Shown: positions 1 through 17,094 of the stretch, piece after piece
How the letters are laid out: the number at the start of each line of letters is the position of its first letter
Position numbering within the stretch: position 1 is the stretch's first letter
NCBI RefSeq assembly: GCF_022014595.1
Contig: NZ_CP091740.1
Location: 3,026,200 to 3,090,199 of the forward strand
Length of the DNA stretch: 64,000 nt
Direction of reading: 5' to 3'
Origin: Solitalea lacus
GTDB lineage: Bacteria > Bacteroidota > Bacteroidia > Sphingobacteriales > Sphingobacteriaceae
Translations under genes and position numbers: made by a program
Notes under the pieces: model-generated
The model's input: the letters and a program-made list of their open reading frames with translations, nothing else
The model's database searches: none
Told to the model about the DNA's origin: nothing

Positions 1-2459
1 ACTACGGTTACTACTGCCTCACAGGTTGAGACATTATTGTTATTATCTGTAACAGTCAATGTCACTGCATTGGGGCCTACATTCGAACAATCAAAATTGG
101 ATTTATTTATAGTCAGTGATTTTATACCGCAATTATCTGACGAACCGTTGTTGATATCAGCTGCGGTAATCGAGGCTGAGCCAGTGGCATTCAGCTGAAT
201 TGTAATGTTTTTGCATTTGGCAATTGGAGCAACCTTATCTTCCACTGTCACCACAGTACTACAGGTTGAGGAATTACCATGAGAATCGGTAACCGTTAAG
301 GTAACATTGTTCGGGCCAATGTTCGAACAATCGAAAGCATTCTTGCTTAATGAATAGGTAAGCGCCCCCCCCGCTGTACAGTTATCGCTTGAACCATTGT
401 CGATATTTACTCCAGTGATTGTTGCCGTACCATTGGCCCCTAACTGAACCGTAATATTTTTACAAACAACTGTAGGAACAACCTTATCTTCTACTGTCAC
501 CACTGCCTCACAAGTTGAAGAATTGCCATGAGAATCGGTAACTGTTAAGATAACCTTATTCTGGCCGATGTTGGAACAATCGAAAGTGCTCTTGCTTACT
601 GAGAAAGTGAGCAAACCAACCGCTGTACAGTTATCGTTTGAACCATTGTCGATACTTACTCCAGTGATTGTTGCAGTACCATTGGCCCCTAACTGAACCG
701 TAATATTTTTACAGATAACGGTTGGCGCTACCTTATCTTCCACTGTCACCACAGTACTGCAGGTTGAGGAATTACCATGAGAATCGGTAACCGTTAAGGT
801 CACATCGTTCGGACCGATGTTCGAACAATCGAAAGTGTTCTTGCTTAATGAATATGTAAGTGGACCACCCGCTGTACAGTTATCGCTTGAACCATTGTCG
901 ATATTTACTCCAGTGATGGTTGCAATACCATTGGCCCCTAACTGAACCGTAATATTTTTACATATAACGGTTGGTGCAGCCTTATCCTCTACAGTTACTA
1001 CGGCCACACAAGTTGAAGAATTGCCATATGCATCGGTAACTGTTAAGGTAACATTGTTCGGACCGATGTTGGAACAATCGAAACTGGTTTTGCTTGCCGA
1101 TAGTGTCACAGAACCACAATTATCAGTCGAACCATTGTTTATATCCGCAGGCGCAATACTTACTGTCCCATTGGAACCCAACTGAATAGTAATATTTTTA
1201 CAAAGAGCTGCTGGTGGAGTAATGTCCCCTACTGTTACTAATGCAGATCCATCTCCTACATTGCTACAATTTGAATCTGAAACATTACCAATCGTGTATG
1301 TTTTGGTAGAAGAAGGAGAAACTGAAAATTGATACGGACTCGAGTTAATCCCGTTTACAGTAACAGGTGTAGTTCCATCTGTATAGGTTATTGACCAAGG
1401 AGCTGTTCCACTTAGGGCAATGCTTAATTGTGTTGAGATCCCCGGACAAATAGTTACCCCTCCACCACTAATGGTTGCAGTGGGTTTTGAACTTTGAGTA
1501 AGCACAAAAGGAGGGCTTGAAACAACTGAAGGACAACTTGTAATTTGATCCTGTACCTCAACTGTATAAGAACCGGGTGTATTAGTTGTATAGGTACTAC
1601 CGGTTGCTCCTGAAATATTATTACCATTAAACTTCCATTGATAAGAATAAGAAGGTTTCCCTCCTCCTGCATTGGCAGTAAGTACTGCTGAAGCTGAACC
1701 ACATAAAACAGGAACATCTGATGTAATAACTGCTGTTAAAGCTGGATAATTATTAACCTTAAATGAACCTGTCACAGGCAACAAATTGCCACAACCATCC
1801 TTGATTGTGCCAGTTACTGAATAAGTAAGCACCGCAGGCGAACCAGCTACCGAGGTATATGTGGCGTACCTGGATGTTACAGGATTAGGAATTATCAAGG
1901 AATTATACTGACCTGGAGTAGGACCTGTAGTAGAGTTAATTGTCAATGAGGTACCTGATGCAACGGCTCCGAAATCAAGCTGAGCAGAACAATTGACCCT
2001 AATATCAAGGTCTTTGGGTATACTTGGCCTTTTTACCGTAGTAATAACATAATCATAAACATCATTCCCTGGTTTACAAAATACAATTTCGGTCGGTGTA
2101 CCATCTACATGGGGAGTTACACAAGATAGTTCCCCGAGTGGTTTTGCAGGTCCACAATCAATCTTATAGCTAGCTGAAGCTACAGAACTTGGTCCTTTAA
2201 AAACATTGAAGCTCACCCCTCCAACATCAGGGTTCAAATACAACAGAAACCTGATACACTCATCCCTATCATTATTACAAAAATTACTAGTTCGATTACT
2301 TGTTGAATAGGTCCAGCTTGCATCCGGACTATTTTCCAGATGAACATCAATGGTTTGGGCCCTTGCACGGGGCAAATACCAAATGGTTACAATAAGACAG
2401 AAGACAATCAACCTCATTATCTTCAAAAGATTGATTTGGGGGAATAAAATAGCAGTCAT
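1..2459 (-). CDS. Giant HYR-repeat surface adhesin, 5' part only (runs off the window)
   Basis: The reading frame is open from ATG at 2459 to base 1 (819 codons) with no stop, so the 3' end lies outside the window. A signal peptide covers about residues 1-35 and ends in ARAQ. After a unique N-terminal region comes an Ig-like stretch (around YSYQWKFNG and PGSYTVEVQD). Then follow HYR-like repeats of about 83 residues, with cores such as CKNITVQLG, DNGSNDNC, FDCSNIGPN and VTLTVTDSHGN. The repeat boundary recurs near 234, 483, 732 and 981, a 249-bp period. The same repeat class occurs twice near the start of the 3116-residue adhesin at 6305-15655, so the two are paralogues. By analogy it should be exported by type IX secretion, but the C-terminal sorting domain is not visible here. 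It follows the OmpA-family gene but is separated from it by a terminator and has its own leader. Confidence 0.85.
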   Translation of the reverse strand, partial: MTAILFPQINLLKIMRLIVFCLIVTIWYLPRARAQTIDVHLENSPDASWTYSTSNRTSNFCNNDRDECIRFLLYLNPDVGGVSFNVFKGPSSVASASYKIDCGPAKPLGELSCVTPHVDGTPTEIVFCKPGNDVYDYVITTVKRPSIPKDLDIRVNCSAQLDFGAVASGTSLTINSTTGPTPGQYNSLIIPNPVTSRYATYTSVAGSPAVLTYSVTGTIKDGCGNLLPVTGSFKVNNYPALTAVITSDVPVLCGSASAVLTANAGGGKPSYSYQWKFNGNNISGATGSTYTTNTPGSYTVEVQDQITSCPSVVSSPPFVLTQSSKPTATISGGGVTICPGISTQLSIALSGTAPWSITYTDGTTPVTVNGINSSPYQFSVSPSSTKTYTIGNVSDSNCSNVGDGSALVTVGDITPPAALCKNITIQLGSNGTVSIAPADINNGSTDNCGSVTLSASKTSFDCSNIGPNNVTLTVTDAYGNSSTCVAVVTVEDKAAPTVICKNITVQLGANGIATITGVNIDNGSSDNCTAGGPLTYSLSKNTFDCSNIGPNDVTLTVTDSHGNSSTCSTVVTVEDKVAPTVICKNITVQLGANGTATITGVSIDNGSNDNCTAVGLLTFSVSKSTFDCSNIGQNKVILTVTDSHGNSSTCEAVVTVEDKVVPTVVCKNITVQLGANGTATITGVNIDNGSSDNCTAGGALTYSLSKNAFDCSNIGPNNVTLTVTDSHGNSSTCSTVVTVEDKVAPIAKCKNITIQLNATGSASITAADINNGSSDNCGIKSLTINKSNFDCSNVGPNAVTLTVTDNNNNVSTCEAVVTV

Positions 2460-2491
2460 AAGCGGGGATTTAAATATTTTTCACAATCCCA

Positions 2492-2545
2492 CTTATCAGT
2501 TTAATAAGCATTAACTGATTAATAAATGATTAATTATCTGATAAG
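2492..2545. promoter_or_regulatory. Inverted repeat CTTATCAG / CTGATAAG in the leader of the partial adhesin gene
   Basis: CTTATCAG (2492-2499) and CTGATAAG (2538-2545) form a perfect 8-bp inverted repeat 33 bp upstream of the start codon at 2459. The same pair recurs upstream of the relic at 2664-2797, and a degenerate version lies before the gene at 15655. This points to a shared regulatory leader (operator or 5'-UTR stem). The function is inferred. Confidence 0.45.
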
Positions 2546-2663
2546 CGTTCATTTAGATAAAGCGTTATATAAGGCCTTTTTCAAGGTCATTGAAATTGAA
2601 AAATCAGTTCATTATTTGAGAAATTGCCACTGCGTAACTCAAAAGAATAAAGCCCAACTACAC

Positions 2664-2797
2664 GGGACTAAACTCCAGATAGACTGCAATGGTTGAGGCA
2701 ATTGCCCGCGGCAACAAAAACCGATGAGAGTGGTACAGAAATTAATCAACCTAATTACCTTCAAAAGGTTGATTCTAAGGGGTAGCATAGTGGTCAT
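2664..2797 (-). pseudogene. Decayed 5' end of a third adhesin paralogue
   Basis: Read on the minus strand from ATG at 2797, the sequence matches the start of the partial adhesin at 2459. The signal-peptide stretch INLLKVIRLINFC corresponds to INLLKIMRLIVFC. After a frameshift, LPRAIASTIAVYLEFSP corresponds to LPRARAQTIDVHLENSP. Similarity stops near 2664, the frame is broken and nothing else of the gene remains. The upstream leader (about 2800-2930) is also shared with the other adhesin genes. It is best read as the residue of a tandem duplication, or of a larger adhesin gene that was deleted. Confidence 0.7.
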
Positions 2798-2827
2798 AAG
2801 CGAGATTTATAAAATTTTATAATCCCA

Positions 2828-2864
2828 CTTATCAGCGTAATTTAAATTTTGAGAGACTGATAAG
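2828..2864. promoter_or_regulatory. Inverted repeat CTTATCAG / CTGATAAG upstream of the adhesin relic
   Basis: CTTATCAG at 2828-2835 pairs with CTGATAAG at 2857-2864. The surrounding sequence (AAGCGTTATTTAGATA, then GTTTTTCCAGCAAG) is shared with the leaders before 2459 and 15655. It is a second copy of the family leader, now in front of a dead gene. Confidence 0.4.
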
Positions 2865-2945
2865 CGTTATTTAGATAGTAGCGTTTTTCCAGCAAGACCC
2901 TTTTTAAGGCCCTCGAAATAGATTCAATTTTATTTTTGATTTTAT

Positions 2946-2979
2946 AAAGAGGCTTCCTCCTGATGGAGTCAGCCTCTTT
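2946..2979 (-). terminator. Strong hairpin terminator after the OmpA-family gene
   Basis: AAAGAGGCT (2946-2954) pairs perfectly with AGCCTCTTT (2971-2979). An inner CTCC/GGAG pairing gives a long stem with a four-base loop. It lies 35 bp beyond the stop of the minus-strand gene ending at 3014 and closes the adhesin-PorP/SprF-OmpA transcription unit. Confidence 0.75.
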
Positions 2980-3013
2980 ATTATTGAGACCTAGTGATTA
3001 ATTATATCAAACC

Positions 3014-5248
3014 TTAATATTTAGTGATAGCAAACTCGGTTCTTCTATTCTCCTGAAACTCTTGGTCACTGCATTTAGCTCCGTTAGTACATTTATTTAC
3101 CGGTCTGGTTTCACCGTATCCTTTAGCCGTGATGCGCAGAGGCGAAATACCCGTAGAAATAATATAATTAACTGCTGACTGTGCCCTTTTCTGACTTAAT
3201 TCCATATTATATTGGTCAGTACCACGGGAATCGGTATGAGAACTTAGCTCAATGATCATTGTTGGATTATTGTTCAAAATTTGAACGAGTTTGTTCAACT
3301 CTTTTTTAGCATCTTCACGAATGTTCCATTTCGCATAATCATAGTAAATATTATCTAACCGGATGCCTTTATTTAATTCAATAGAATCCAATCCAATTGA
3401 TACTTTGGTAACTTTTGATTCTTTAAAACCCTTGGTACTTACAGTTGTCTTTGATGGCGTTATATAAGCTGTTTTTTCAGCATTAATGGAGTAATCTGTA
3501 TTCTCATCCATGTTAAAGGCAAAATATCCGTTTTCATCGGTAGGAGCTTTTAACTCAGTGTTATTTTTAAGATTGTATAAGGTGACGGTAGCATTGCTGA
3601 TGGATTTATTTGATTTTTTATTATAAACATTTCCTTCCAAAAGAAACTCAATAGAATCCAAACCTATTGTCAATTTGGTAATCTGTGATTCTTTATAACC
3701 CTTCGTGCTTAAATTATCCTTTGGAGGAGCGATGAAAGAGGTTTTTTCAGCATTAACTGTGTAATCTGAATTTTCATCCATACTAAATGAAAAATTACCT
3801 TTTTCATCCGTAGGGATTTTCAATTCTGTATTGGTTTTAAGATTATATAAGGTGACAACAGCATTGCTAATTGATTTATGCGTTTTTTTGTTGAAAACAT
3901 TTCCTTCCAAACGAAACTTTAGCTCCTTTTTGGCAAACTGATATACATCATCCATACCTATTCCCCCGGTGCGATTACTGGAAAGGAATCCGCTTTTATC
4001 ATCTTCAGCAAAAACGATCTTAAAATCATCCTGGGGAGTATTAAAAGGATACCCCAAATTTCTGGCTACCTTTCGGCCATTGAAATCAGAAGTATGGACC
4101 ACATAAATATCAAGGCCACCCAATCCCACTCTACCATTACTAGAAAAATAAAAATTACCCTCATTATCGAAGCTTGGAAAGCGCTCATCGCCAACGGTGT
4201 TAAAACCCTTCATGTTTACGGGTGATCCCCAGCTTCCATCCTCCTGGCGTTCGCAGAAATACAAATCCGATCCGCCCTGTCCTTCCGGCATATCAGAAGC
4301 GAAATAAAGCATGCTTCCATCGTTACTCAAACAAGCATCGCTAACCGAATAGTCCTGTTGCGAATTATAAGCAAAGGGTATCGGTGCACTCCAGGAGCTA
4401 TCTGTTTCATTATAGATGGATGAATACAATTCCAGTTTGATGGTGTAATTTTTGTTCTTTTTGTTTGATTTATCAAAGCGAGTACGGGTAAAAAATACTT
4501 CTTTACCATCTTTTGAGAAACAGACAGATCCGTTGTGAAATTCCCCGTTTAAAGTATTTGAAAAAGGCTTCACTTTTTTCCAGCCATTGCCATCCTTTTC
4601 TGCATAAAACAGCTTTAGGTAAGGTAATCCTGTCCAACCACAAACCTTTTTCGACAGATTATTATCTATATCAAAATGAAGAAAACGCTTATCCTTCACC
4701 GCTGAAGAATCAATTATTCGATCGGAAGAAAAGACGATACCATTTTGATATTTTGCAACTCCCCAATCGCTTTGCGGCGTGTTTAAAGCTGAATCCAGTT
4801 TAAAAATGTATTTAACAGGATGCTGCATCCATACAACGGCAGAATCGCAGGATTGAACCAATTGCCCGATAATAGGCAGAGCCGATCCACCTGCTTCCTT
4901 AAGATAACTTTCATAGATCCCTTTTGCCTCTGCATATTTTGAATTATTGCGCAATGCTTCCGCATAATAAAACACATCCATTGCAGTATGATCCGGCATT
5001 TGAACAACCTTAGCATACCAACTTTCTGTGGCGGCATAATTATTTACCTTACGATAGCTTTCGGCCAAACCCTGTGCTGCCGTATAAGTGGCTCGCCTTT
5101 CAAAAGCTTTTTCATATAGCCCAATGGCCACACTATAATTAAGCAATTCAGATTGGCGCTGTGCTTCAAGTAATGATGCCTGCGCATATGCCCCCGTTTG
5201 AGATATTAGGAGTATGCTTATAATCAGAGATAATGTAAATTTTACCAT
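3014..5248 (-). CDS. OmpA-family protein with TPR, PD40 and carboxypeptidase-regulatory-like domains (type IX secretion/gliding associated)
   Basis: This 744-residue exported protein has a signal peptide ending near AYAQ. A TPR-like helical region follows (about 25-130), then PD40/WD40-like beta-propeller repeats (motifs such as NDGSMLYFASD, GGSDLYF, FYFSSNG, GLGGLDIYV). Next are two tandem 90-residue carboxypeptidase-regulatory-like modules. The C-terminus is an OmpA peptidoglycan-binding domain (IYYDYAKWNI, ELSSHTDSRGTDQYN, LSQKRAQSAVNY, NRRTEF). This domain order is typical of Bacteroidota proteins encoded next to PorP/SprF and related to the PorE type of periplasmic, peptidoglycan-anchoring type IX factor. 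It starts 57 bp after the PorP/SprF gene and ends before a strong terminator. It probably anchors the export or adhesin apparatus to the wall; that role is inferred from family and context. Confidence 0.9.
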   Translation of the reverse strand: MVKFTLSLIISILLISQTGAYAQASLLEAQRQSELLNYSVAIGLYEKAFERRATYTAAQGLAESYRKVNNYAATESWYAKVVQMPDHTAMDVFYYAEALRNNSKYAEAKGIYESYLKEAGGSALPIIGQLVQSCDSAVVWMQHPVKYIFKLDSALNTPQSDWGVAKYQNGIVFSSDRIIDSSAVKDKRFLHFDIDNNLSKKVCGWTGLPYLKLFYAEKDGNGWKKVKPFSNTLNGEFHNGSVCFSKDGKEVFFTRTRFDKSNKKNKNYTIKLELYSSIYNETDSSWSAPIPFAYNSQQDYSVSDACLSNDGSMLYFASDMPEGQGGSDLYFCERQEDGSWGSPVNMKGFNTVGDERFPSFDNEGNFYFSSNGRVGLGGLDIYVVHTSDFNGRKVARNLGYPFNTPQDDFKIVFAEDDKSGFLSSNRTGGIGMDDVYQFAKKELKFRLEGNVFNKKTHKSISNAVVTLYNLKTNTELKIPTDEKGNFSFSMDENSDYTVNAEKTSFIAPPKDNLSTKGYKESQITKLTIGLDSIEFLLEGNVYNKKSNKSISNATVTLYNLKNNTELKAPTDENGYFAFNMDENTDYSINAEKTAYITPSKTTVSTKGFKESKVTKVSIGLDSIELNKGIRLDNIYYDYAKWNIREDAKKELNKLVQILNNNPTMIIELSSHTDSRGTDQYNMELSQKRAQSAVNYIISTGISPLRITAKGYGETRPVNKCTNGAKCSDQEFQENRRTEFAITKY
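3377..3916 (-). repeat. Tandem duplication of a 270-bp regulatory-like module inside the OmpA-family gene
   Basis: Two consecutive 90-codon units (3647-3916 and 3377-3646) share nearly all framework residues. Examples are EGNVFNKK/EGNVYNKK, VTLYNLK, ELK-PTDE-G and IGLDSIE. They encode carboxypeptidase-regulatory-like beta-sandwich modules. The close match suggests a fairly recent internal duplication. Confidence 0.8.
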
Positions 5249-5305
5249 AACTAATGAGGTTTATAACCGTCAGCTCTGCGGCTCAGCATTGATCGGTTTT
5301 GGTTA

Positions 5306-6289
5306 TTAAAAATATCTAGGTGTCAACATTTTAAGTTTTTTAGGAATAAAGGAATATCCCAATGACAGTTCATGGGTTCCATAGTTAAAGTCCTTGAACT
5401 TGTTAAAAGAGAAATCATAGGCATAACCGATTCTTATACGTTCAGTTACAAAAAACTCTGCCAGCCCGACAACTGCATTAGTAGTGGATAAATCCCGTTG
5501 AAGATTATCTTTATTCCACACACCAATCCCGGTCCTGTAAGAAGCTCCCAGCCACAAGCGTTCAGCAAACAACACAAACGTATTTAAATCGAGAGTAGTT
5601 GGTCCTTTTGATTCATTCTTTAACATAAAGGAGGGTTTCAGTAAAAGGCTTCCACTGAGAGGAATTAATCCTCCTGCTGTAAGATAGAAATGAGGCATTT
5701 TTTTAGGGATCAATACAGTGGGATCTTTTGTGTAGCTCATATATTGACCAATCAAGTTATCTAATGAAAATCCTGCGTATATGCGGTCGCTACTATAATA
5801 TAAACCAGCTCTGAGATCAGGAACAATTACTGATTGTTTTTCTTTAGGCACCCTAGGATCCTCAAGCTGATTAGGGTTCAGTTTTGCTCCATCGATAGAG
5901 TATTGAGAGATCCCTGCACCAAGTCCAAAGGCCAGGCGAGCTTTTTCGCTTACCGGTAACCGGTAAGCATAATTAAGGTAACCTGCAAGGGTGCTTTCTG
6001 CACCTAATTGATCCTTTAAAACATTTAATGCCAAACCTACATTTCCATTGTTTGCAATTGCATCCAATGCCAAACTAAAGGTCTCCGGATTGCCTTCCAG
6101 TCCTCCGGTCCACTGGCTGCGGTAAAAGGTGTGCAGGTTCATTTGCTCCTTATAACCGGCATAAGCGGGATTGATATAAATCCCATTAAACATGTACTGA
6201 GAAAATTGTGCATCCTGTTGGGCATATACAGCTGAATTGAGCAGCATTAACCAGAGGATTGTGAGAAGCGTTAGTGATTTCATATTCAA
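5306..6289 (-). CDS. PorP/SprF family type IX secretion outer-membrane protein
   Basis: The 327-residue protein has a signal peptide ending SAVYAQQ. It is followed by the family hallmark QFSQYMFNGIYINPAYAGY and HTFYRSQWTG, and then by alternating beta strands ending in LSLGYSF, as expected for an outer-membrane barrel. PorP/SprF proteins are encoded next to, and needed for secretion and surface attachment of, cargo carrying the type B (gliding-motility-type) C-terminal domain. That fits here: the gene starts 15 bp after the stop of the 3116-residue adhesin, which has such a domain, and 57 bp before the OmpA-family gene. The three should form one operon, with this protein the dedicated partner of the adhesin. 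Confidence 0.93.
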   Translation of the reverse strand: MNMKSLTLLTILWLMLLNSAVYAQQDAQFSQYMFNGIYINPAYAGYKEQMNLHTFYRSQWTGGLEGNPETFSLALDAIANNGNVGLALNVLKDQLGAESTLAGYLNYAYRLPVSEKARLAFGLGAGISQYSIDGAKLNPNQLEDPRVPKEKQSVIVPDLRAGLYYSSDRIYAGFSLDNLIGQYMSYTKDPTVLIPKKMPHFYLTAGGLIPLSGSLLLKPSFMLKNESKGPTTLDLNTFVLFAERLWLGASYRTGIGVWNKDNLQRDLSTTNAVVGLAEFFVTERIRIGYAYDFSFNKFKDFNYGTHELSLGYSFIPKKLKMLTPRYF

Positions 6290-6304
6290 AAAATTTAAAA
6301 ACAG

Positions 6305-9300
6305 TTATCGTAAAATGGTTACATATCCGGTGTATTTCACCGATCTATTGTCAGATGCCGTCACAGTTAGCACATAGAAGTAAGTGCCATCATGCAATTG
6401 AGAACCGTCCCAATCATTTTTATAATTTTGGCTTTTATAGACTTCATTTCCCCAGCGGCTCATTACAACCAACTCTGTTTTTAAGTCCTCAATGCCTTCA
6501 ATAACAAATGTTTCGTTAAATGCATCTCCATTAGGTGTAAAGACATTCGGTATTTTAAAGCCAAGTACGGTTTTAATTACTTCAGCAATGTTGCTTGATG
6601 GATCCAGTTCTGGTTGCGGGCCAACTACTTCTGCTCTATTGAGTACATTTCCGCCTTTTACCCCTTTAACCTTGAGCGTCAAGATGGCAGATTCATTTAC
6701 ATTCAGACTTACCAGGTTCCAGGTAATCTTATGAGTGTTTGGATCATAGACCGCTTGCCCCGAGTTAGCGCTGCTACTCACGTATACAAGAGCATCCGAA
6801 AGTGGATCCAATACCACTACATCATGGGCGTTAACGTGACCCGAATTCGACACCTCAATGCTATACTCAAATTCTTCATTCAGATTAACTGAATTAGGAA
6901 GCGTAGTCTTTTTAATAACCAGGTCCACATTATCATCCAAAACGTCCACTGTAATTTTTCCTGTAGCGCAAAGAGCAGGCTTTCCATTATCACAAACCGT
7001 ATAATAGAAGACGTCTTTACCATAGTATCCATTGGCTGGAGTATACTTGATTATATTATCACTTCCCACGGAAACCGTTCCATGGCTGGGTTGTGATACA
7101 TTAGAAAGTGTTAATCCAGCCGCCTTTCCTCTTGAAGGCACATTATCCGGATTAGTTGCACCTTCTAAAGCATCAGCTGATACAGGATGATTCATCAGGG
7201 TGCTCAGGTCAACGTCAGGAGCTATTGGACCAACATTACCAATTGTCACATTCTGAACAGCTGTCGATTTTAACCCATTCACATCGGTCACCGTCCAGGT
7301 AACTTTGGTAACGCCTTCAGTGAAAAATGCAGGGGCGTCATTAGTCACACTGGCAACCCCACAATTATCAGAAGTTACAGGAGTCCCCAAATTAATTGAC
7401 GAACCGGTATTTAATCCCTGAGAAACAATATCTGCAGGAGCGGTTATCTGCGGCGCAGTCACGTCTTTTACAATCACGTTTTGTATGGCTGTTTCCACAT
7501 TTCCATGGCCGTCGTCAAAGCTCCATGTGATAACGTAGCTTCCTTGAACGGTATATGTCAATGGATTAGTGGTAGTACCCATGATAGTACCTGAACAGTT
7601 ATCGGTAGTTGATGGCACCGAAACAGTTGCAGAGCACTCTCCTATTACATCAGCTAGAACTACTGGTTTCACTGGCTTAGTTTGATCCGTCACCGTAACT
7701 ATTTGGGTACAGGTTTGAATATTGCCTGCCACATCTTTCACCGTCCAGATCACTGTAGTGGTGCCTGCTGGGAAAGTGGCCGGAGCATTATTGGTAATGG
7801 TAAAGTTTCCAGTACCGGTACAGTTGTCAGTCACCACCGGCGGAGTTAAAGTCACCCCGGTTGCATCACAACCACTGTTGGCAGCTACCGTAATGTCTTG
7901 AGGACAGCTGGTAATTGTCGGCTGGGTTTGATCCGTTACCGTAACCAGTTGAGTACAGGTCTGCATATTGCCTGCCGCATCTTTCACCGTCCAGGTCACT
8001 GTAGTGGTGCCTGCCGGGAATGTGACCGGTGCATTATTGGTAATGGTAAAGTTTCCGGTTCCGGTACAGTTGTCAGTCACCACCGGCGGAGTTAAAGTCA
8101 CCCCGGTTGCATCACAACCACTGTTGGCAGCTACCGTAATGTCCTGCGGACAGGTGGTAATGGTTGGCTGGGTTTGATCCGTTACCGTAACTACTTGAGT
8201 ACAGGTTTGAATATTACCTGCCGCATCTTTCACCGTCCAGATTACCGTGGTGGTGCCTGCTGGGAAAGTGGCCGGTGCATTATAGGTAATGGTAAAGTTT
8301 CCTGCTCCGGTACAGTTGTCAGTCACCACTGGCGGAGTTAAAGTTACCCCGGTTGCATCACAACCACTGTTGGCAGCTACCGTAATGTCCTGCGGACAGG
8401 TGGTAATGGTCGGCTGGGTTTGATCTGTTACCGTAACTATTTGAGTACAGGTTTGAATATTACCTGCCGCATCTTTCACCGTCCAGGTCACTGTAGTGGT
8501 GCCTGCCGGGAATGTGGCCGGAGCATTATTGGTAATGGTAAAGTTTCCGGTTCCGGTACAGTTGTCAGTCACCACCGGCGGAGTTAAAGTCACCCCGGTT
8601 GCATCACAACCACTGTTGGCAGCTACCGTAATGTCCTGCGGACAGGTGGTAATTGTTGGCTGGGTTTGATCTGTTACTGTAACTAGTTGAGTACAGGTTT
8701 GAATATTGCCTGCCGCATCTTTCACCGTCCAGGTCACTGTAGTGGTGCCTGCTGGGAAAGTGGCTGGTGCATTATTGGTAATGGTAAAGTTTCCGGTTCC
8801 GGTACAGTTGTCAGTCACTACCGGCGGAGTTAAAGTCACCCCGGTTGCATCACAACCGCTGTTGGCAGCTACTGTTATATCCTGCGGACAGCTGGTAATT
8901 GTCGGCTGGGTTTGATCTGTTACCGTAACTACTTGAGTACAGGTTTGAATATTACCTGCCGCATCTTTCACCGTCCAGGTCACTGTAGTGGTGCCTGCTG
9001 GGAAAGTGGCCGGTGCATTATTGGTAATGGTAAAGTTTCCGGTTCCGGTACAGTTGTCAATCACCACCGGCGGAGTTAAAGTCACCCCGGTTGCATCACA
9101 ACCACTGTTAGCAGCTACCGTAATGTCCTGAGGACAGGTGGTAATTGTCGGCTGGGTTTGATCTGTTACCGTAACTACCTGGGTACAGGTTTGAATATTA
9201 CCTGCCGCATCTTTCACCGTCCAGGTCACTGTAGTGGTGCCTGCTGGGAAAGTGGCCGGTGCATTATTGGTAATGGTAAAGTTTCCGGTTCCGGTACAAT

Positions 9301-12300
9301 TGTCAATCACCACCGGCGGAGTTAAAGTCACCCCGGTTGCAACACAACCACTGTTGGCAGCTACTGTAATATCCTGCGGACAGCTGGTAATGGTTGGCTG
9401 GGTTTGATCCGTTACCGTAACTACTTGGGTACAGGTTTGAATATTGCCTGCCGCATCTTTCACCGTCCAGGTTACCGTGGTGGAACCTGCGGGGAAAGTG
9501 GCCGGTGCATTATTGGTAATGGTAAAGTTGCCGGTACCGGTACAGTTGTCAATCACCACCGGCGGAGTTAAAGTTACCCCGGTTGCATCACAACCGCTAT
9601 TGGCAGCTACCGTAATGTCTTGAGGACAAGTGGTAATGGTCGGCTGGGTTTGATCTGTTACCGTAACTACTTGAGTACAGGTTTGAATATTACCTGCCGC
9701 ATCTTTCACCGTCCAGGTCACTGTAGTGGTGCCTGCCGGGAATGTGGCCGGAGCATTATTGGTAATGGTAAAGTTTCCGGTTCCGGTACAGTTGTCAGTC
9801 ACCACCGGCGGAGTTAAAGTCACCCCGGTTGCATCACAACCGCTGTTGGCAGCTACTGTAATATCCTGAGGACATGTGGTAATGGTTGGCTGGGTTTGAT
9901 CAGTTACCGTAACTACTTGGGTACAGGTTTGAATATTGCCTGCCACATCTTTCACCGTCCAGGTCACTGTAGTGGTGCCTGCTGGGAAAGTGGCCGGAGC
10001 ATTATTGGTAATGGTAAAGTTTCCTGCTCCGGTACAGTTGTCAGTCACCACTGGCGGAGTTAAAGTTACCCCGGTTGCATCACAACCACTGTTGGCCGCT
10101 ACCGTAATATCCTGCGGACAGGTGGTAATGGTTGGCTGGGTTTGATCCGTTACCGTAACTACTTGGGTACAGGTTTGAATATTGCCTGCCGCATCTTTCA
10201 CCGTCCAGGTTACCGTGGTGGCCCCTGCCGGGAAAGTGGCCGGTGCATTATTGGTAATGGTAAAGTTTCCGGTTCCGGTACAGTTGTCAATCACCACCGG
10301 CGGAGTTAAAGTTACCCCGGTTGCATCACAACCGCTGTTGGCAGCTACCGTAATGTCTTGAGGACAGGTGGTAATGGTTGGCTGGGTTTGATCCGTTACC
10401 GTAACTACTTGAGTACAGGTTTGAATATTACCTGCCGCATCTTTCACCGTCCAGGTCACTGTAGTGGTGCCTGCCGGGAAAGTGGCCGGTGCATTATTGG
10501 TAATGGTAAAGTTTCCTGCTCCGGTACAGTTGTCAGTCACCACCGGCGGCGTTAAAGTCACCCCGGTTGCATCACAACCACTGTTGGCAGCTACCGTAAT
10601 GTCTTGAGGACAGGTGGTAATGGTAGGCTGGGTTTGATCCGTTACCGTAACTACTTGAGTACAGGTTTGAATATTACCTGCCGCATCTTTCACCGTCCAG
10701 GTCACTGTAGTGGTGCCTGCCGGGAATGTGGCCGGAGCATTATTGGTAATGGTAAAGTTTCCGGTTCCGGTACAGTTGTCAGTCACCACCGGCGGAGTTA
10801 AAGTTACCCCGGTTGCATCACAACCACTGTTGGCAGCTACCGTAATGTCCTGCGGACAGGTGGTAATGGTCGGCTGGGTTTGATCCGTTACCGTAACTAC
10901 CTGGGTACAGGTTTGAATATTGCCTGCCTGGTCTTTCACCGTCCAGGTCACCGTGGTGGCCCCTGCCGGGAAAGTGGCCGGTGCATTATTGGTAATTCTT
11001 AAACCTGCTGTAGCAGTACAGTTGTCGCTTGCCACTGGCCCAGTCAGGCTTACCCCTACGGCTCCACAGCCACTATTAGCTGCTACCGTCATATCTTCAG
11101 GGCAGGAGATAATAACCGGCATGGTTTGATCCACAACAGTTACTATCTGGGAATTACATTTTTGTGTATTGCCTGCCGCATCGGTTACTGTCCAGGTTAC
11201 AACAGTGTTACCCTCAGGAAAGATCACCGGTGCATCATTTGTGATTATTAAGTCTGCCACTGCAGTACAGTTGTCACTAACTTCCGGTGCTGTTAAGATC
11301 ACCCCTGTTGCTCCGCATCCGTTGTTGGCAGGTACAGTTATGCTTGGTGGACAAGACGCAATCGTCGGCTTGGTAATATCTTTTACAATCACATTTTGAG
11401 TGGCCGTTTCCACATTGCCATTGCCATCATCGAAGGTCCAGGTAATTACATGCGTACCTTGGGTGGTATAAGTTAAAGGGTTTGCAGTTGTACCTGTTAC
11501 AGTACCCCTACAATTGTCGTTGACTACCGGTGCCGTAGCCGTAGCGGAACATTGGCCAGTTACATTAGCAAGAATTGGCTTAACTGGTTTGGTTATATCT
11601 TTTACAATCACATTTTGAGCGGCCGTTTCCACATTACCATGGCCGTCATCAAACCTCCAGGTAATCACATGTGTACCTTGGGTTATATAGGTCAATGGAT
11701 CTGAGGTAGTACCTATGATGGTACCTGAACAGATATCGGTGGTCGTTGGCACAGTAGCAGTTGCCGAGCATTCGCCTGTTACATCATCTAAGACAGGCTT
11801 AACAGGCAAGGTTTTGTCTTTTATAATTACATTTTGAGTGGCTGTTTGCACGTTACCATTGCCGTCATTAAATGTCCAAGTGATCTGGTATGTACCTTGA
11901 GCAGTATAAGTCAAAGGATCGGAAGTAGTACCCTGAATGACATTTCCACAGTTTTCACCAGCTACAGGAATAGGAACAGTAACCGAACATTCACCCGTTA
12001 TATCTGCAAGGACTGGTTTTATTGGTTCGGTAATGTCCTTAACGATCACCTTTTGAATGGCTGTTTCAACGTTACCATTTCCATCGTCAAATCTCCAGGT
12101 GATGGTATAGGTACCTTGAGCCGTATAAGTCAGGGCGCTGGTTGTTGTACCGGTCACTAGTCCCTTACAGTTATCAGTAGTTGTTGGCACTGAAACAGTT
12201 GCCGAACATTCACCAGTAACATCAGCCAAAACTGGAATTTCCGGTTTGGTTATATCCTTTACAATAACCCGCTGAGTGGCCGTTTCAACATTACCATTAC

Positions 12301-15300
12301 CATCATTAAAGGTCCAGGTAATCGTGTGCGTTCCTTGAGTTGTATACGACAACGGATCAGTAGTAGTGCCTATGACAACACTTAAGCAGTTGTCGGTGGT
12401 TGTAGGCACTGAAGCAGTAGCCGAACATTCACCAGTAACATCAGCCAATGTAGGTTGTACAGGCTTGGTCACATCTTTTACGATCACACGTTGAGTGGCC
12501 GTTTCCACATTACCGTTGCCATCATCAAAGCTCCAAGTAATCAAATGAGTGCCTTGGGTAGTATATGTCAATGCATCAGTGGTAGTACCCAGGATTACCC
12601 CACCACAGTTATCTGTGGTTGATGGCACTGTGGCGGTTGCAGAGCATTCGCCTGTTACATCACCAAGAACTGGTTTAACGGGTTTGATGTTGTCTTTTAT
12701 GATTACGTTTTGGGTTGCAGTTTCCACGTTGCCGTTGCCATCATCGAAGATCCAGGTAATTACATGCGTACCCTGAGTCGAATAAGTCAAGGGACTAGCA
12801 GTTGTACCAATTACCGTCCCCTTGCAATTGTCGTTAACCACAGGTGCCGTAACCGTAGCCGTACATTGACCTGTTACATCAGCAAGGGTAGGTTTATCTG
12901 GTTTGGTTATATCTTGTACAATAACATTTTGAGTGGCTGTCTCAATGTTGCCGTTGCCGTCATCAAAGGACCAGGTGATCACATGTATACCTTGGGTCGA
13001 ATAAGTCTTTGCGTCAGCAGTGGTACCGGTCACCAAGCCTTTGCAATTGTCAGTGGTTGTTGGCGTCATAGCGGTTGCAGAACATTGACCTATTACGTCA
13101 GCTAAAACTGGTTTAACCGGTTTGGTTTGATCCGTTACAGTAACTATTTGAGCACAGGTGGTTGTATTGCCTGCTGCATCCTTAACCGTCCAGGTCACTG
13201 TGGTTGGGCCTGCCGGGAAGGTTGCAGGTGCATTATTAGTAATTGTAAATCCTCCTGCTACGCTACAATTGTCAATTACTACCGGAGGAGTAAGAGATAC
13301 GCCGGTTGCTCCACAGCCGCTGTTGGCAGCTACCGTAATGTTTGCCGGGCAGGTAGTAATCGTTGGTATAGTTTGATCGGTTACCGTAACTACTTGAGAA
13401 CAGGTTGTTGTATTGCCTGCAGCATCCTTAACCGTCCAGGTCACTGTGGTTGGGCCAGCCGGGAAGGTTGCAGGTGCATTATTAGTAATTGTAAACCCTC
13501 CTGCCACGCTACAGTTGTCAACTACTACCGGAGGAGTAAGAGATACGCCGGTTGCTCCACAGCCACTGTTGGCAGCTACTGTAATGTCTGACGGGCAGGT
13601 AGTAATAGTTGGCATTGTTTGATCCGTTACCGTTACCACCTGGGTACAAGTTGCTGTATTGCCTGCCAAATCCTTCACTGTCCAGGTAACTGTGGTGCTA
13701 CCTGCCGGGAAGGTCGTCGGTGCATTATTAGTAATTGTTAAACTCACTGTCCCGGTACAGTTATCGCTCACTACCGGTGGATTCAGGGTAACACCGGTTG
13801 CTCCACAGCCACTGTTGGCCGCTACCGTGATGTCCGAAGGACATGTAGTAATAGTCGGGATGGATTGATCAGCTACCGTTATTATTTGGGTACAGGTTTG
13901 AGTATTGCCAGCCAAGTCCCTTACTGTCCAGGTCACTGTGGTTGGACCTGTCGGAAAGGTCGTCGGAGCATCATTTGTGATTGTTAAGCTAGCAGTCCCA
14001 GTACAATTATCGCTCACCACCGGCGGAGTCAGGGATACCCCGGTTGCACTGCATCCGCTGTTGGCCGCTACCGTTTTATCAGCTGGACAGGTGGTAATTG
14101 TAGGCTTAGTTTGATCCGTTACCGTAACTACTTGAGTACAGGTTTGAGTATTGCCTGCCACGTCCCTTACTGTCCAGGTCACTGTGGTTGGGCCTGCAGG
14201 GAAGGTTGCCGGTGCATTGTTAGTGATTGTTAAACCTGCTACCGGAGTACAGTTGTCGCTCACTACTGGTGGAGTCAGGGTCACTCCGGTTGCTCCGCAA
14301 GCGCTGTTGGCTGCTATCGTTATGTCCGACGGACAAGTAATCGACGGCTTGCTTTGATCCGTGACTGTTACCACAGCCACACAGGTTGAAGTATTTCCTT
14401 TGGCATCTGTTACTGTCAAGGTTACATTGTTAGGACCTATGTTAGAACAATCGAAGCTGGTTTTGCTGGCTGATAAATTTACCGAACCGCAAACATCATT
14501 TGACCCATTATCAATATCAGCTGCAGTTATGGTTGCAGAACCTGCTGAATTCAAGGGAATTGTAATGTTTTTGCAGATTGCCGTAGGGGGTATATTGTCT
14601 ATTACAGTTACCACTGCTACACAGCTTGATGAATTACCTTTGGCATCCGTTACTGTCAGGGTTACGTTGTTAGCACCTAAGTTCGCACAAGTAAAGCTGG
14701 TCGGACTGGCTGAAAGACTTACTGAACCGCAAGCATCATTCGATCCATTATCAATAGAGGCGGCTGTAATGGTTGCAGAACCTGCTGCATTCAATTGTAT
14801 AGTTATATTTTTACAGATCGCAGTTGGTGGTACATTATCAGGCACTGAATTTATCGTAATTACCTGCGATGATTTTGAACAGTTATTGGCATCAATTACC
14901 GCTACAGTATATGTACCTGCGGATAATGAATTAAAAACACCACTAGATTGTAAAGCGCCTCCATTTAATCTATATTGATATGGGGGAGTTCCTCCACTTG
15001 CCGTAACATTGATCGAACCTAAAGTATTACACGTTTGATCAATATGAGTTTCAGTTAAATTAAGCTCAAACGATGTTCCTGCAGTAGATGGAATTTCTAT
15101 AAACACGTCAAATGCTGTTCCCAATCCATTGCCACAAGTGCCTCTTTGATTTATCTGAACTCGTAGCCTTCCTGTAAAATTTGCCACATATTCAATGTAA
15201 ACATCATCAGACGAGGTGGAGAGCGGATTTTTTGTAGGATCATTAGTTATTGTAAAACCCTTTTTTGACTTATCCGCTTCATCAAACAAGTCAATTACTA

Positions 15301-15655
15301 ACGGTTTTTTTGTATTACTTGTATAAATTCTATAGGTAAAGCCGGGGTAAACATTAACAATTGCATACTGTGTATTTCCAGAATTAATGCTGCTATTATC
15401 CAAGCGCGTTGCAGGCCCTCCTACGCAAAGAGACTGATCAACACCAATACGCAAGGCTCCGTTATCATAAGGACATTGCGCGTATACAGAAGTTAATTCA
15501 CACAGATTAAACAGCAGAATCAATACGGATAGCTTCTTAAACCTGTTAAGCCCGTTGAGAACGAATTCTCTTTTAAACTTAATCAGCCGAAGTGATTTAA
15601 TAAGGTTAGATTGACTGGATAGAAACATTAACATAAGCAGAATTTTTTTATTCAT
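6305..15655 (-). CDS. Giant HYR-repeat adhesin with type IX (gliding-motility type) C-terminal sorting domain
   Basis: The gene encodes 3116 residues. An unusually long N-terminus leads to a signal peptide ending SVYAQ, then a unique domain, a SprB-type repeat (GSINVTASGGTPPYQYRLNG) and two HYR modules like those of the partial adhesin at 1-2459. Then come a block of five HYR units (ITVAANSGCGATGV type), eight 73-residue units (KPVLADVTGECSAT type), two divergent HYR units, 13 near-identical 82-residue HYR units, one more 73-residue unit and a diverged HYR. The end carries a cadherin/Big_9-like segment (YTPANGYYGKDVFYYTVCD), a DUF11 domain (NSGHVNAHDVVVLDP) and the sorting domain (IPNVFTPNGDAFNETF, SRWGNEVYKS, WDGSQLHDGTYFYVL). 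It is exported across the outer membrane by type IX secretion and probably mediates adhesion or gliding. The downstream PorP/SprF gene fits as its partner. The antisense strand carries many long shadow reading frames caused by the repeats. Confidence 0.95.
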   Translation of the reverse strand: MNKKILLMLMFLSSQSNLIKSLRLIKFKREFVLNGLNRFKKLSVLILLFNLCELTSVYAQCPYDNGALRIGVDQSLCVGGPATRLDNSSINSGNTQYAIVNVYPGFTYRIYTSNTKKPLVIDLFDEADKSKKGFTITNDPTKNPLSTSSDDVYIEYVANFTGRLRVQINQRGTCGNGLGTAFDVFIEIPSTAGTSFELNLTETHIDQTCNTLGSINVTASGGTPPYQYRLNGGALQSSGVFNSLSAGTYTVAVIDANNCSKSSQVITINSVPDNVPPTAICKNITIQLNAAGSATITAASIDNGSNDACGSVSLSASPTSFTCANLGANNVTLTVTDAKGNSSSCVAVVTVIDNIPPTAICKNITIPLNSAGSATITAADIDNGSNDVCGSVNLSASKTSFDCSNIGPNNVTLTVTDAKGNTSTCVAVVTVTDQSKPSITCPSDITIAANSACGATGVTLTPPVVSDNCTPVAGLTITNNAPATFPAGPTTVTWTVRDVAGNTQTCTQVVTVTDQTKPTITTCPADKTVAANSGCSATGVSLTPPVVSDNCTGTASLTITNDAPTTFPTGPTTVTWTVRDLAGNTQTCTQIITVADQSIPTITTCPSDITVAANSGCGATGVTLNPPVVSDNCTGTVSLTITNNAPTTFPAGSTTVTWTVKDLAGNTATCTQVVTVTDQTMPTITTCPSDITVAANSGCGATGVSLTPPVVVDNCSVAGGFTITNNAPATFPAGPTTVTWTVKDAAGNTTTCSQVVTVTDQTIPTITTCPANITVAANSGCGATGVSLTPPVVIDNCSVAGGFTITNNAPATFPAGPTTVTWTVKDAAGNTTTCAQIVTVTDQTKPVKPVLADVIGQCSATAMTPTTTDNCKGLVTGTTADAKTYSTQGIHVITWSFDDGNGNIETATQNVIVQDITKPDKPTLADVTGQCTATVTAPVVNDNCKGTVIGTTASPLTYSTQGTHVITWIFDDGNGNVETATQNVIIKDNIKPVKPVLGDVTGECSATATVPSTTDNCGGVILGTTTDALTYTTQGTHLITWSFDDGNGNVETATQRVIVKDVTKPVQPTLADVTGECSATASVPTTTDNCLSVVIGTTTDPLSYTTQGTHTITWTFNDGNGNVETATQRVIVKDITKPEIPVLADVTGECSATVSVPTTTDNCKGLVTGTTTSALTYTAQGTYTITWRFDDGNGNVETAIQKVIVKDITEPIKPVLADITGECSVTVPIPVAGENCGNVIQGTTSDPLTYTAQGTYQITWTFNDGNGNVQTATQNVIIKDKTLPVKPVLDDVTGECSATATVPTTTDICSGTIIGTTSDPLTYITQGTHVITWRFDDGHGNVETAAQNVIVKDITKPVKPILANVTGQCSATATAPVVNDNCRGTVTGTTANPLTYTTQGTHVITWTFDDGNGNVETATQNVIVKDITKPTIASCPPSITVPANNGCGATGVILTAPEVSDNCTAVADLIITNDAPVIFPEGNTVVTWTVTDAAGNTQKCNSQIVTVVDQTMPVIISCPEDMTVAANSGCGAVGVSLTGPVASDNCTATAGLRITNNAPATFPAGATTVTWTVKDQAGNIQTCTQVVTVTDQTQPTITTCPQDITVAANSGCDATGVTLTPPVVTDNCTGTGNFTITNNAPATFPAGTTTVTWTVKDAAGNIQTCTQVVTVTDQTQPTITTCPQDITVAANSGCDATGVTLTPPVVTDNCTGAGNFTITNNAPATFPAGTTTVTWTVKDAAGNIQTCTQVVTVTDQTQPTITTCPQDITVAANSGCDATGVTLTPPVVIDNCTGTGNFTITNNAPATFPAGATTVTWTVKDAAGNIQTCTQVVTVTDQTQPTITTCPQDITVAANSGCDATGVTLTPPVVTDNCTGAGNFTITNNAPATFPAGTTTVTWTVKDVAGNIQTCTQVVTVTDQTQPTITTCPQDITVAANSGCDATGVTLTPPVVTDNCTGTGNFTITNNAPATFPAGTTTVTWTVKDAAGNIQTCTQVVTVTDQTQPTITTCPQDITVAANSGCDATGVTLTPPVVIDNCTGTGNFTITNNAPATFPAGSTTVTWTVKDAAGNIQTCTQVVTVTDQTQPTITSCPQDITVAANSGCVATGVTLTPPVVIDNCTGTGNFTITNNAPATFPAGTTTVTWTVKDAAGNIQTCTQVVTVTDQTQPTITTCPQDITVAANSGCDATGVTLTPPVVIDNCTGTGNFTITNNAPATFPAGTTTVTWTVKDAAGNIQTCTQVVTVTDQTQPTITSCPQDITVAANSGCDATGVTLTPPVVTDNCTGTGNFTITNNAPATFPAGTTTVTWTVKDAAGNIQTCTQLVTVTDQTQPTITTCPQDITVAANSGCDATGVTLTPPVVTDNCTGTGNFTITNNAPATFPAGTTTVTWTVKDAAGNIQTCTQIVTVTDQTQPTITTCPQDITVAANSGCDATGVTLTPPVVTDNCTGAGNFTITYNAPATFPAGTTTVIWTVKDAAGNIQTCTQVVTVTDQTQPTITTCPQDITVAANSGCDATGVTLTPPVVTDNCTGTGNFTITNNAPVTFPAGTTTVTWTVKDAAGNMQTCTQLVTVTDQTQPTITSCPQDITVAANSGCDATGVTLTPPVVTDNCTGTGNFTITNNAPATFPAGTTTVIWTVKDVAGNIQTCTQIVTVTDQTKPVKPVVLADVIGECSATVSVPSTTDNCSGTIMGTTTNPLTYTVQGSYVITWSFDDGHGNVETAIQNVIVKDVTAPQITAPADIVSQGLNTGSSINLGTPVTSDNCGVASVTNDAPAFFTEGVTKVTWTVTDVNGLKSTAVQNVTIGNVGPIAPDVDLSTLMNHPVSADALEGATNPDNVPSRGKAAGLTLSNVSQPSHGTVSVGSDNIIKYTPANGYYGKDVFYYTVCDNGKPALCATGKITVDVLDDNVDLVIKKTTLPNSVNLNEEFEYSIEVSNSGHVNAHDVVVLDPLSDALVYVSSSANSGQAVYDPNTHKITWNLVSLNVNESAILTLKVKGVKGGNVLNRAEVVGPQPELDPSSNIAEVIKTVLGFKIPNVFTPNGDAFNETFVIEGIEDLKTELVVMSRWGNEVYKSQNYKNDWDGSQLHDGTYFYVLTVTASDNRSVKYTGYVTILR
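7682..10879 (-). repeat. Array of 13 near-identical 246-bp HYR repeats
   Basis: The array is 3198 bp, exactly 13 x 246 bp (82 codons each). Each unit begins TQPTIT(T/S)CPQDITVAANS and ends CTQVVTVTDQ. Only a few substitutions separate units (T/I before DNC, T/A in CTG(T/A)GN, V/I/L in Q(V/I/L)VTV). No unit has an indel. The similarity at DNA level implies recent expansion or ongoing homogenisation by recombination. Confidence 0.95.
11375..13126 (-). repeat. Array of eight 219-bp HYR-variant repeats
   Basis: The array is 1752 bp, exactly 8 x 219 bp (73 codons). Each unit has the pattern KPVLADVTGECSAT, TTDNC, GTT, LTYTTQGTH, ITWSFDDGNGNVETATQ and VIVKD. Units differ more from one another than those of the 13-copy array, so this block is older. 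A ninth unit of the same class sits alone on the other side of the 13-copy array (around 7470-7680). Confidence 0.92.
13127..14353 (-). repeat. Block of five HYR repeats (four of 246 bp, one of 243 bp)
   Basis: The five consecutive units share ITVAANSGCGATGV, PPVVSDNC, APATFPAGPTTVTWTV and CTQVVTVTDQ. They belong to the same class as the 13-copy array but are more diverged from each other. The first unit lacks one codon. They are followed without gap by the 219-bp units. Confidence 0.88.
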
Positions 15656-15924
15656 TATTAGTGTTAAAACCTAACTCACTCATCAACTTATAACTGTCTG
15701 ACAAGCGTTATTTTAGGCAATAGGATTTCCAGCAAGGCCATTTCAGGTCCTCAGACATAGAAAAACAATCAATAAATTTTTAATTGGATTTTAGAGAGAG
15801 AGAGATTTAGATGATTGGTAAGCTGTTCTTTTTAAATAGTTTTAGTTTTATTAAACAGTGTATATTGTATATTTTATAATACGATTATTTCAAATTAGAC
15901 ACTCAATCACTTGAATAACAACGC

Positions 15925-16674
15925 TTAGAACGGATAGCTTCTTCCTTTTTGCAGTTTAAATTGCTTTTGATTATTACAAATGCAAGGTATGTGCCAATTT
16001 TGGATTTGAGGAAATAAATCCCCTTCTATCCAAGCAATTAGAAGATTTGAAGCAAACCGCTCCCGAATTCTATTTTTTAAAGCACTCGTACTGTTTACTA
16101 AAACAGGCTCTTCACTGTCACTTTCCATGATAGCATTATTGTTAACCTTTCGTGGCCGAACCGAAATAATTACATCGTCAGCCGTTGAAACATTATTACT
16201 TAAAGTAGGATCTGTTGTTTGAGCAGTGATCACTGCTGTATTTGATGCAATACCAATTTTATTTGCTCTTACTTTAATAAGGATGATTTGAAAATCTCCT
16301 GCTTTCAATTGATCTAAATTATATGACAGCTGTCGAGTTATTGGATCGTACACCACTGAAGAAACCGAAGATGAATAGTATTCGAAATTGATTGGTAGTA
16401 CATCCTTTACTCTGATCAATTTAGCCGTTGAAGGCCCTACATTTTCTAACCTTATTTGATAAGTAAAAATTTCTCCTTCTTTAACTGTAATTCTATCAAC
16501 AGAATTAGTAATGCTTAAGTCTGCATTATTAATACCTGTTAATTTGATTTCTTTGGCGAAAGCAAATGAGGCCAGAAAGAGTATACTAATAAAGAAAATA
16601 AAGAAGCTGATAATCCAGCGTTGGCGTTGATAATAGATACTCCTCAATGAGGAGCGATGAGAGCGATCGTTCAT
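15925..16674 (-). CDS. Small DUF11-domain exported or membrane-anchored protein
   Basis: The protein is 249 residues. A basic N-terminus and a hydrophobic segment (about 20-40, ending FAFAKE) indicate a signal peptide or anchor. A single DUF11 domain follows (about 50-165: ADLSITNSVD, FTYQIRLENVGPSTA, VKDVLPINFEY, SNTAVITA, DPTLSNN). DUF11 is also present near the C-terminus of the giant adhesin encoded 269 bp downstream on the same strand. The last about 80 residues match nothing I recognise and contain two cysteines (PCIC) but no type IX sorting domain. It may be a truncated or re-ended adhesin fragment, or a small accessory surface protein. Confidence 0.75.
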   Translation of the reverse strand: MNDRSHRSSLRSIYYQRQRWIISFFIFFISILFLASFAFAKEIKLTGINNADLSITNSVDRITVKEGEIFTYQIRLENVGPSTAKLIRVKDVLPINFEYYSSSVSSVVYDPITRQLSYNLDQLKAGDFQIILIKVRANKIGIASNTAVITAQTTDPTLSNNVSTADDVIISVRPRKVNNNAIMESDSEEPVLVNSTSALKNRIRERFASNLLIAWIEGDLFPQIQNWHIPCICNNQKQFKLQKGRSYPF

Positions 16675-16742
16675 AAATAGTAGGATTAATTAGATGGACA
16701 AATTGTATAGATTTTACATACTTTATTTTTACTTATTTAAAC

Positions 16743-16803
16743 ATGGCTTTGCAATCATATGAATCGACCCAGAACTACATCAACTCATATGATCACAAGC
16801 CAT
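16743..16803. repeat. Imperfect 19-20 bp inverted repeat with TCATATGA cores
   Basis: The left arm 16743-16762 (starts ATGGCTT, ends ATCATATGA) pairs with the right arm 16785-16803, separated by 22 bp. Each arm contains the palindrome TCATATGA (16755-16762, 16785-16792), 30 bp apart. It lies in the 490-bp spacer between the divergent DUF11 and thioesterase genes. It could be a two-site operator, a hairpin or the trace of a small mobile element. The rest of this spacer (to 17164) shows no convincing gene. Confidence 0.5.
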
Positions 16804-17094
16804 ATTGCTGATTTTTAGACAGAAAGACGGTTACTTTCAGATCAGTATTTGTCAAACCTTATGCCATAACAATGCATTCCTACAAGGTTCACATAGCACT
16901 AAAAAGCTACAAAACCGCTTTGGCCGGCATAAACAATTAATTAATTATCAATTCATTAATCGAACAAACATTTACTTTTCTAAAGTATAAGCTGATTTTT
17001 TGCACTATCAATAAAAATGCTGTATTGAAATCAATACATTTTTGTTTTAGAATGATTTTTATTTAGGCTGACAGACCAAGTAGAACAGAATAAG

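Follow-up and report, generated by a model that had tools for sequence, protein, structure and literature searches.

Periscope Proteins are surface proteins built from tandem folded domains that are highly identical and differ in number between strains, the variation in length being strongest where repeat identity is highest; SasG, Rib, Sgo_0707, CshA and CdrA are members (PMC8201768, PMC9704523). Their repeats are delimited as tandem units of over 50 residues sharing at least 80% identity (PMC8201768). Another kind of long repetitive surface protein is the SprB-type gliding adhesin of Flavobacterium. Type B CTD proteins have been shown to bind PorP-like proteins, as SprB, a type B adhesin of Flavobacterium johnsoniae, does with SprF, and it has been proposed that type B proteins encoded beside PorE-like genes are static (non-mobile) and wall-anchored, a PorP-like gene with no adjacent PorE-like gene being the mark of a motile, SprB-like protein (PMC9143113).

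Here, we analysed a window of 64,000 nucleotides from Solitalea lacus that carries a gene rich in HYR domains with an array of 13 tandem units, and for which Periscope-type stalk proteins are the closest known kind. Both are secreted surface proteins with beta-sandwich stalks of tandem, highly identical folded domains longer than 50 residues (here 82 residues, 92.7-100% identical between units at the protein level), and for both homologous recombination between units is proposed. The window protein differs in its domain (HYR), its type IX export, its PorP and PorE-like anchor and its DNA identity of only 94%, and, whereas length variation between strains is documented for Periscope Proteins, the window array is known from one genome. 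Neither 'HYR' nor 'Bacteroid' occurs in the text of the Periscope review (PMC9704523), and the literature library searched gave nothing that ties HYR to gliding, SprB or type IX secretion. With the SprB-type adhesins, the window protein shares its giant repetitive build, a type B sorting domain, an adjacent PorP/SprF gene and the presence of SprA and a GldJ-like protein in the genome; sprB and sprF, however, have no PorE-like neighbour, whereas here a PorE-like OmpA ORF lies directly after the PorP gene. Considering this adjoining gene together with the proposal in PMC9143113, the HYR adhesin is more likely to be a static stalk than a gliding adhesin.

We read the array as a stalk segment of a long type IX-secreted HYR adhesin, whose units were amplified within the gene and have been kept alike by short-tract recombination and purifying selection, and we put the probability of this reading at roughly 0.8.

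The adhesin gene and its neighbourhood

The features of the locus are collected in the table below. Pfam recognizes 20 HYR and five HYR_4C stretches in the adhesin ORF, as well as Big_9, DUF11 and CHU_C domains. The HYR family PF02494 scores 549.6 bits (curated gathering cut-off 21.7), CHU_C PF13585 76.1 bits (Pfam cut-off 27) and the type B sorting domain TIGR04131 39.3 bits (NCBIfam cut-off 35). The HYR identity that the earlier note had given to the array units is thus confirmed (PF02494, E = 5e-169), and so is its view that they belong to an adhesin-type protein, a label that rests on the architecture, as no known adhesive domain was recognized at the N-terminus. The true start of the ORF may be a later GTG near residue 31.

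Features of the HYR adhesin locus (window coordinates)
Feature	Position	Strand	Basis or remark
Neighbouring paralogous adhesin, N-terminal part	1..2459	-	C-terminus, outside the window, 78% identical; without the 13-unit array
PorE-like OmpA-family protein (peptidoglycan-anchor type)	3014..5248	-	Best NCBIfam models CHU_0125 OmpA and T9SS_PorE, both below cut-offs
PorP/SprF-family outer-membrane partner	5306..6289	-	TIGR03519, 264 bits vs 90.6
HYR-rich adhesin ORF, 3116 aa	6305..15655	-	ORF call; Pfam HYR, HYR_4C, DUF11, CHU_C; TIGR04131
CHU_C / type B T9SS C-terminal sorting domain	6314..6556	-	Pfam and NCBIfam
DUF11 domain	6578..6925	-	Pfam
Big_9 Ig-like domain	6947..7231	-	Pfam
Single HYR_4C unit	7463..7681	-	Sharp C-terminal array border
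HYR array, 13 x 246-bp (82-aa) units, indel-free	7682..10879	-	Tandem Repeats Finder, fixed lattice, self-identity; mean pairwise DNA identity 0.938
Two diverged edge HYR units, E0 and E0a	10880..11377	-	E0: 77% DNA identity, pS 0.48 to array; E0a more distant
Eight 73-aa HYR_4C units	11378..13126	-	Old, diverged (pS 0.66)
Five 82-aa HYR units	13127..14353	-	Array type but diverged (pS 0.50 within; 0.56 to array)

The adhesin gene is followed, in order, by the PorP/SprF-family gene, the PorE-like OmpA gene and the paralogous adhesin gene. Elsewhere in the same genome we identified the SprA translocon (2510 bits vs a cut-off of 200) and a GldJ-like protein, which matches its family in two pieces and below the cut-off. 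The sorting domain, the adjacent PorP/SprF gene and SprA in the genome are the features expected of type B cargo of the type IX secretion system (T9SS), which the adhesin is accordingly predicted to be. Judged by homology, it would leave the cell through SprA; the neighbouring PorP/SprF-family protein would retain it at the outer membrane, and the PorE-like OmpA protein, also encoded next to it, would link it to peptidoglycan. The exported protein would comprise a signal peptide, an N-terminal region of putative ligand role, about 30 Ig-like HYR/HYR_4C domains, DUF11 and the type B sorting domain, with the 13 units, nearly identical as protein, probably serving as a rod-like spacer.

These genes are part of an adhesin island (C1:3012000-3043000; window 1-17000 and the DNA upstream) with three adhesin, three PorP and two PorE-like genes. 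The position of the island is conserved in the sister species, between a gene for a 177-aa protein and a 4HBT/EVE pair, with different adhesins; it lies on one contig in one sister species and in pieces in the other two. In the sister species, the gene directly before PorP encodes a protein that has a sorting domain and three copies of DUF11; in the window, the HYR adhesin stands between PorP and an ORF of 249 aa (15925-16674, minus strand) that has DUF11 only and no sorting domain. This ORF has the look of a truncated remnant, its partner genes having come to lie after the HYR adhesin. Between two PorP genes of the same genome (L072 14264-14851, C1:3021260-3021853) lies an adhesin C-terminus interrupted by eight stop codons, a decayed adhesin of the same island. 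The PorE-like gene carries at window 3378-3918 a 270-bp unit in two copies (78%), a duplicated carboxypeptidase-regulatory-like domain; its relatives match in two pieces around this segment, as if single-copy there.

Relationships and exchange among the units

Tandem Repeats Finder returned a period of 246 with 93% matches and 0% indels over 7680-10996, and when the sequence was divided into fixed 246-bp slots, each of the 13 units between 7682 and 10879 matched a reference unit at 91-98% identity, with sharp edges (24% in the slot below 7682, 75% in slot 10880-11125). Self-identity at lag 246 is 0.935, compared with at most 0.274 among 200 shuffles. The length of exactly 13 x 246 bp without indels, as described in the earlier note, therefore stands, and the whole array is in frame and stop-free within a single ORF. 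The description of its units as near-identical fits the protein (93-100%) but overstates the likeness of the DNA: pairs of units differ at 5-25 of 246 bases (about 15 on average), no two of the 13 are identical, and 47-48 of the 246 columns vary. With a mean pairwise identity of 0.938, 'only a few substitutions' was likewise too strong.

A tree of all 82-aa units places the 13 array units in a single cluster (support 96/98) that excludes the edge unit and the five N-terminal ones. Silent divergence (pS) is 0.19 within the array and 0.48 between the array and edge unit E0; the five N-terminal units stand at 0.50 from one another and at 0.56 from the array. The history that the array units have in common is therefore younger than that of the remaining stalk. 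The array probably arose by the amplification of one unit inside the gene, or by homogenization.

That the variation is shuffled between units, through gene conversion or unequal crossover, had been claimed in the earlier note, and several lines of evidence bear out the shuffling. A run-length permutation test was significant both for all sites (p < 0.0005) and for silent sites (p = 0.0035), and linkage (r2) decayed from 0.27 for sites less than 15 bp apart to about 0.1 for more distant ones (p = 0.018). As a null for exchange, we used the best tree to simulate 100 alignments that had rate variation but no recombination; the z of the real alignment, 6.1, compares with a maximum of 3.5 in the simulations, and its site incompatibility of 0.64 with a maximum of 0.61. 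Moreover, unit 1 is a mosaic: it equals unit 11 over its first third, units 5 and 10 in the middle and unit 2 over its last third. Three tests thus reject divergence without exchange. A near-site incompatibility test on the array units fell short of significance (p = 0.07-0.16), so that the runs test and the simulations carry the argument for exchange. On these patterns, exchange between units over short tracts is well supported, and it goes beyond what a single tree accounts for, which is the criterion for concerted evolution; conversion and unequal crossover are not told apart by one genome.

How often unit number changes is a separate matter. An unstable, contingency-style array, in which RecA-dependent unequal crossover often alters the number of units between cells and thereby tunes length (a strict Periscope behaviour), would be consistent with the mosaic units, and homologous recombination could use the exact matches between units (217 with a length of 25 bp or more, 58 with 50 bp or more and 6 with 100 bp or more). 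The 58 matches of 50 bp or more would in principle permit unequal exchange, and the point that gain or loss of whole units would preserve the frame (246 = 3 x 82) holds. The sequence nevertheless bears no sign of unequal exchange happening now. The least-diverged pair of array units still differs at 5 sites, with a minimum pS of 0.063, so that no freshly duplicated pair, and hence no sign of current copy-number flux, was found among the 13; neighbouring units are not more alike than distant ones (Mantel r = -0.08); and a mean identity of 94% is modest when set against the 99% of a sister-species array. Taken together, these features provide mild evidence against recent copy-number change, and we regard frequent change between cells as rather unlikely.

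Selection and the reliability of the assembly

Most of the variation within the array is silent. Third codon positions account for 38 of 48 variable columns, pS is 0.19 as against a pN of 0.018 (dN/dS 0.08), transitions outnumber transversions by 34 to 21, and four cysteines are kept at the same places in all 13 units. The low dN/dS and the conserved cysteines indicate that the sameness of the protein owes much to selection. Recombination alone, to which the earlier note had ascribed the homogeneity, is therefore only part of the explanation: exchange contributes, while purifying selection drives much of the likeness at the protein level. The array is maintained by recombination between units together with strong purifying selection.

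Selection might in principle suffice, if an old array had been held alike without any exchange and the shuffled pattern reflected recurrent silent mutation, and the third-position bias, the excess of transitions and the low dN/dS would all fit. This explanation is very improbable in view of the runs test, the linkage decay and the 100 tree simulations, which included rate variation. In addition, the other 82-aa units, under similar constraint, have a pS of about 0.5, and an array that had undergone neither amplification nor homogenization would be expected at about 0.5 too.

A true copy number hidden by collapsed or mis-sized units, which the earlier note raised as a possibility, is the least probable alternative of all: tandem arrays are a known short-read problem, and the related sister-species array described below combines frame breaks with a long exact repeat, but here the units can all be told apart, exact repeats anywhere in the adhesin gene reach 171 bp at most, the array contains no repeated 175-mer, the frame is intact across all units and the genome is a single 4.40-Mb contig, making collapse unlikely unless the assembly used unpaired reads of less than about 170 bp.

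The array of that sister species (L078 10041-15728) comprises 11 HYR_4C units of 219 bp, 99% identical, with an exact repeat of 1314 bp. Two +1-bp shifts (unit spacing 220) split its frame into three ORFs; they are either a sequencing error or a real break, and assembly or sequencing error is a real concern there.

Fold, relatives and biological meaning

An AlphaFold2 model of two units (20-row alignment) is all beta, with two folded domains, a pLDDT of 90 and a pTM of 0.72. Its best match in the PDB is the ligand-binding region of the adhesin SraP (4m00, 4m03; Foldseek E 3.7e-8), with a Z of 8.3, just above the tool's 'common' level, over 148 residues; the resemblance covers two domains at only 25-28% sequence identity and an rmsd of 5.0 A. 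SraP is exported by a system different from type IX secretion. Further fold matches are cadherin, titin and Rib tandems (Rib2R 6s5y), and by sequence no HYR relative of weight was found among PDB chains (best E 0.023). The modelled fold would thus fit an Ig-like stalk and shows no ligand.

No array unit was found at E <= 1e-25 in three sister species or in 147 other genomes of the family. In the syntenic island of the sister species we looked for an orthologous array with another number of units, but did not find the HYR adhesin gene. Flavobacterium, Fluviicola and others have HYR relatives with 50-60% identity at the protein level; a scan of viruses gave no relatives. The array of Flavobacterium caseinilyticum (L043; 11.8 x 243 bp, 90% identical; pS 0.24, pN 0.045) shares the domain, a similar unit length, the exchange signal and the lack of stops with the window array, but has only about 59% protein identity to its unit. 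Our pS/pN comparison of arrays leaves aside that of L078, whose lattice is broken by the shifts, and that of L074, for which the antisense frame had been taken. The latter array, located in the same genome (L074 1317-18294, C1 about 4385117-4402094), is very long, with about 69 units of 231 bp and 4 of 234 bp at 98%, and lies close to an adhesin C-terminus with an open frame of 6175 aa; it is a better candidate for length variation than the window array. The HYR_4C units at 11378-13126 are old (pS 0.66), yet the sister species has homogenized an HYR_4C array to 99%. The type of unit that is amplified differs between genes and between species, and the arrangement is ordinary for the phylum, with similar arrays elsewhere in the genus and in Flavobacterium.

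In the stalk reading preferred here, one HYR unit was amplified within the gene to give the array, recombination tracts of tens to about 170 bp and purifying selection on the 82-aa sequence keep the units alike, and unequal exchange can add or remove whole domains in frame, because the unit is exactly 82 codons. The resulting protein may be a rod-shaped, anchored adhesin whose length varies on long time scales. A stronger version, in which it is a true length-variable Periscope stalk of Bacteroidota, its unit number drifting between strains by recombination and its hold provided by PorP and PorE-like proteins instead of a sortase or beta-barrel anchor, is a tentative idea that we consider somewhat less probable than even.

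Among the repetitive stalk proteins of bacteria, a kind already known, this is a good example but an ordinary one. The array illustrates clearly, on a small scale, how silent mutation, exchange between units and purifying selection shape a repetitive stalk, and it shows that reliable assembly of such arrays is possible where distinct silent marks distinguish the units. If its length does vary, the Periscope idea would extend to type IX-secreted HYR stalks, a widespread and little-studied type of Bacteroidota adhesin.
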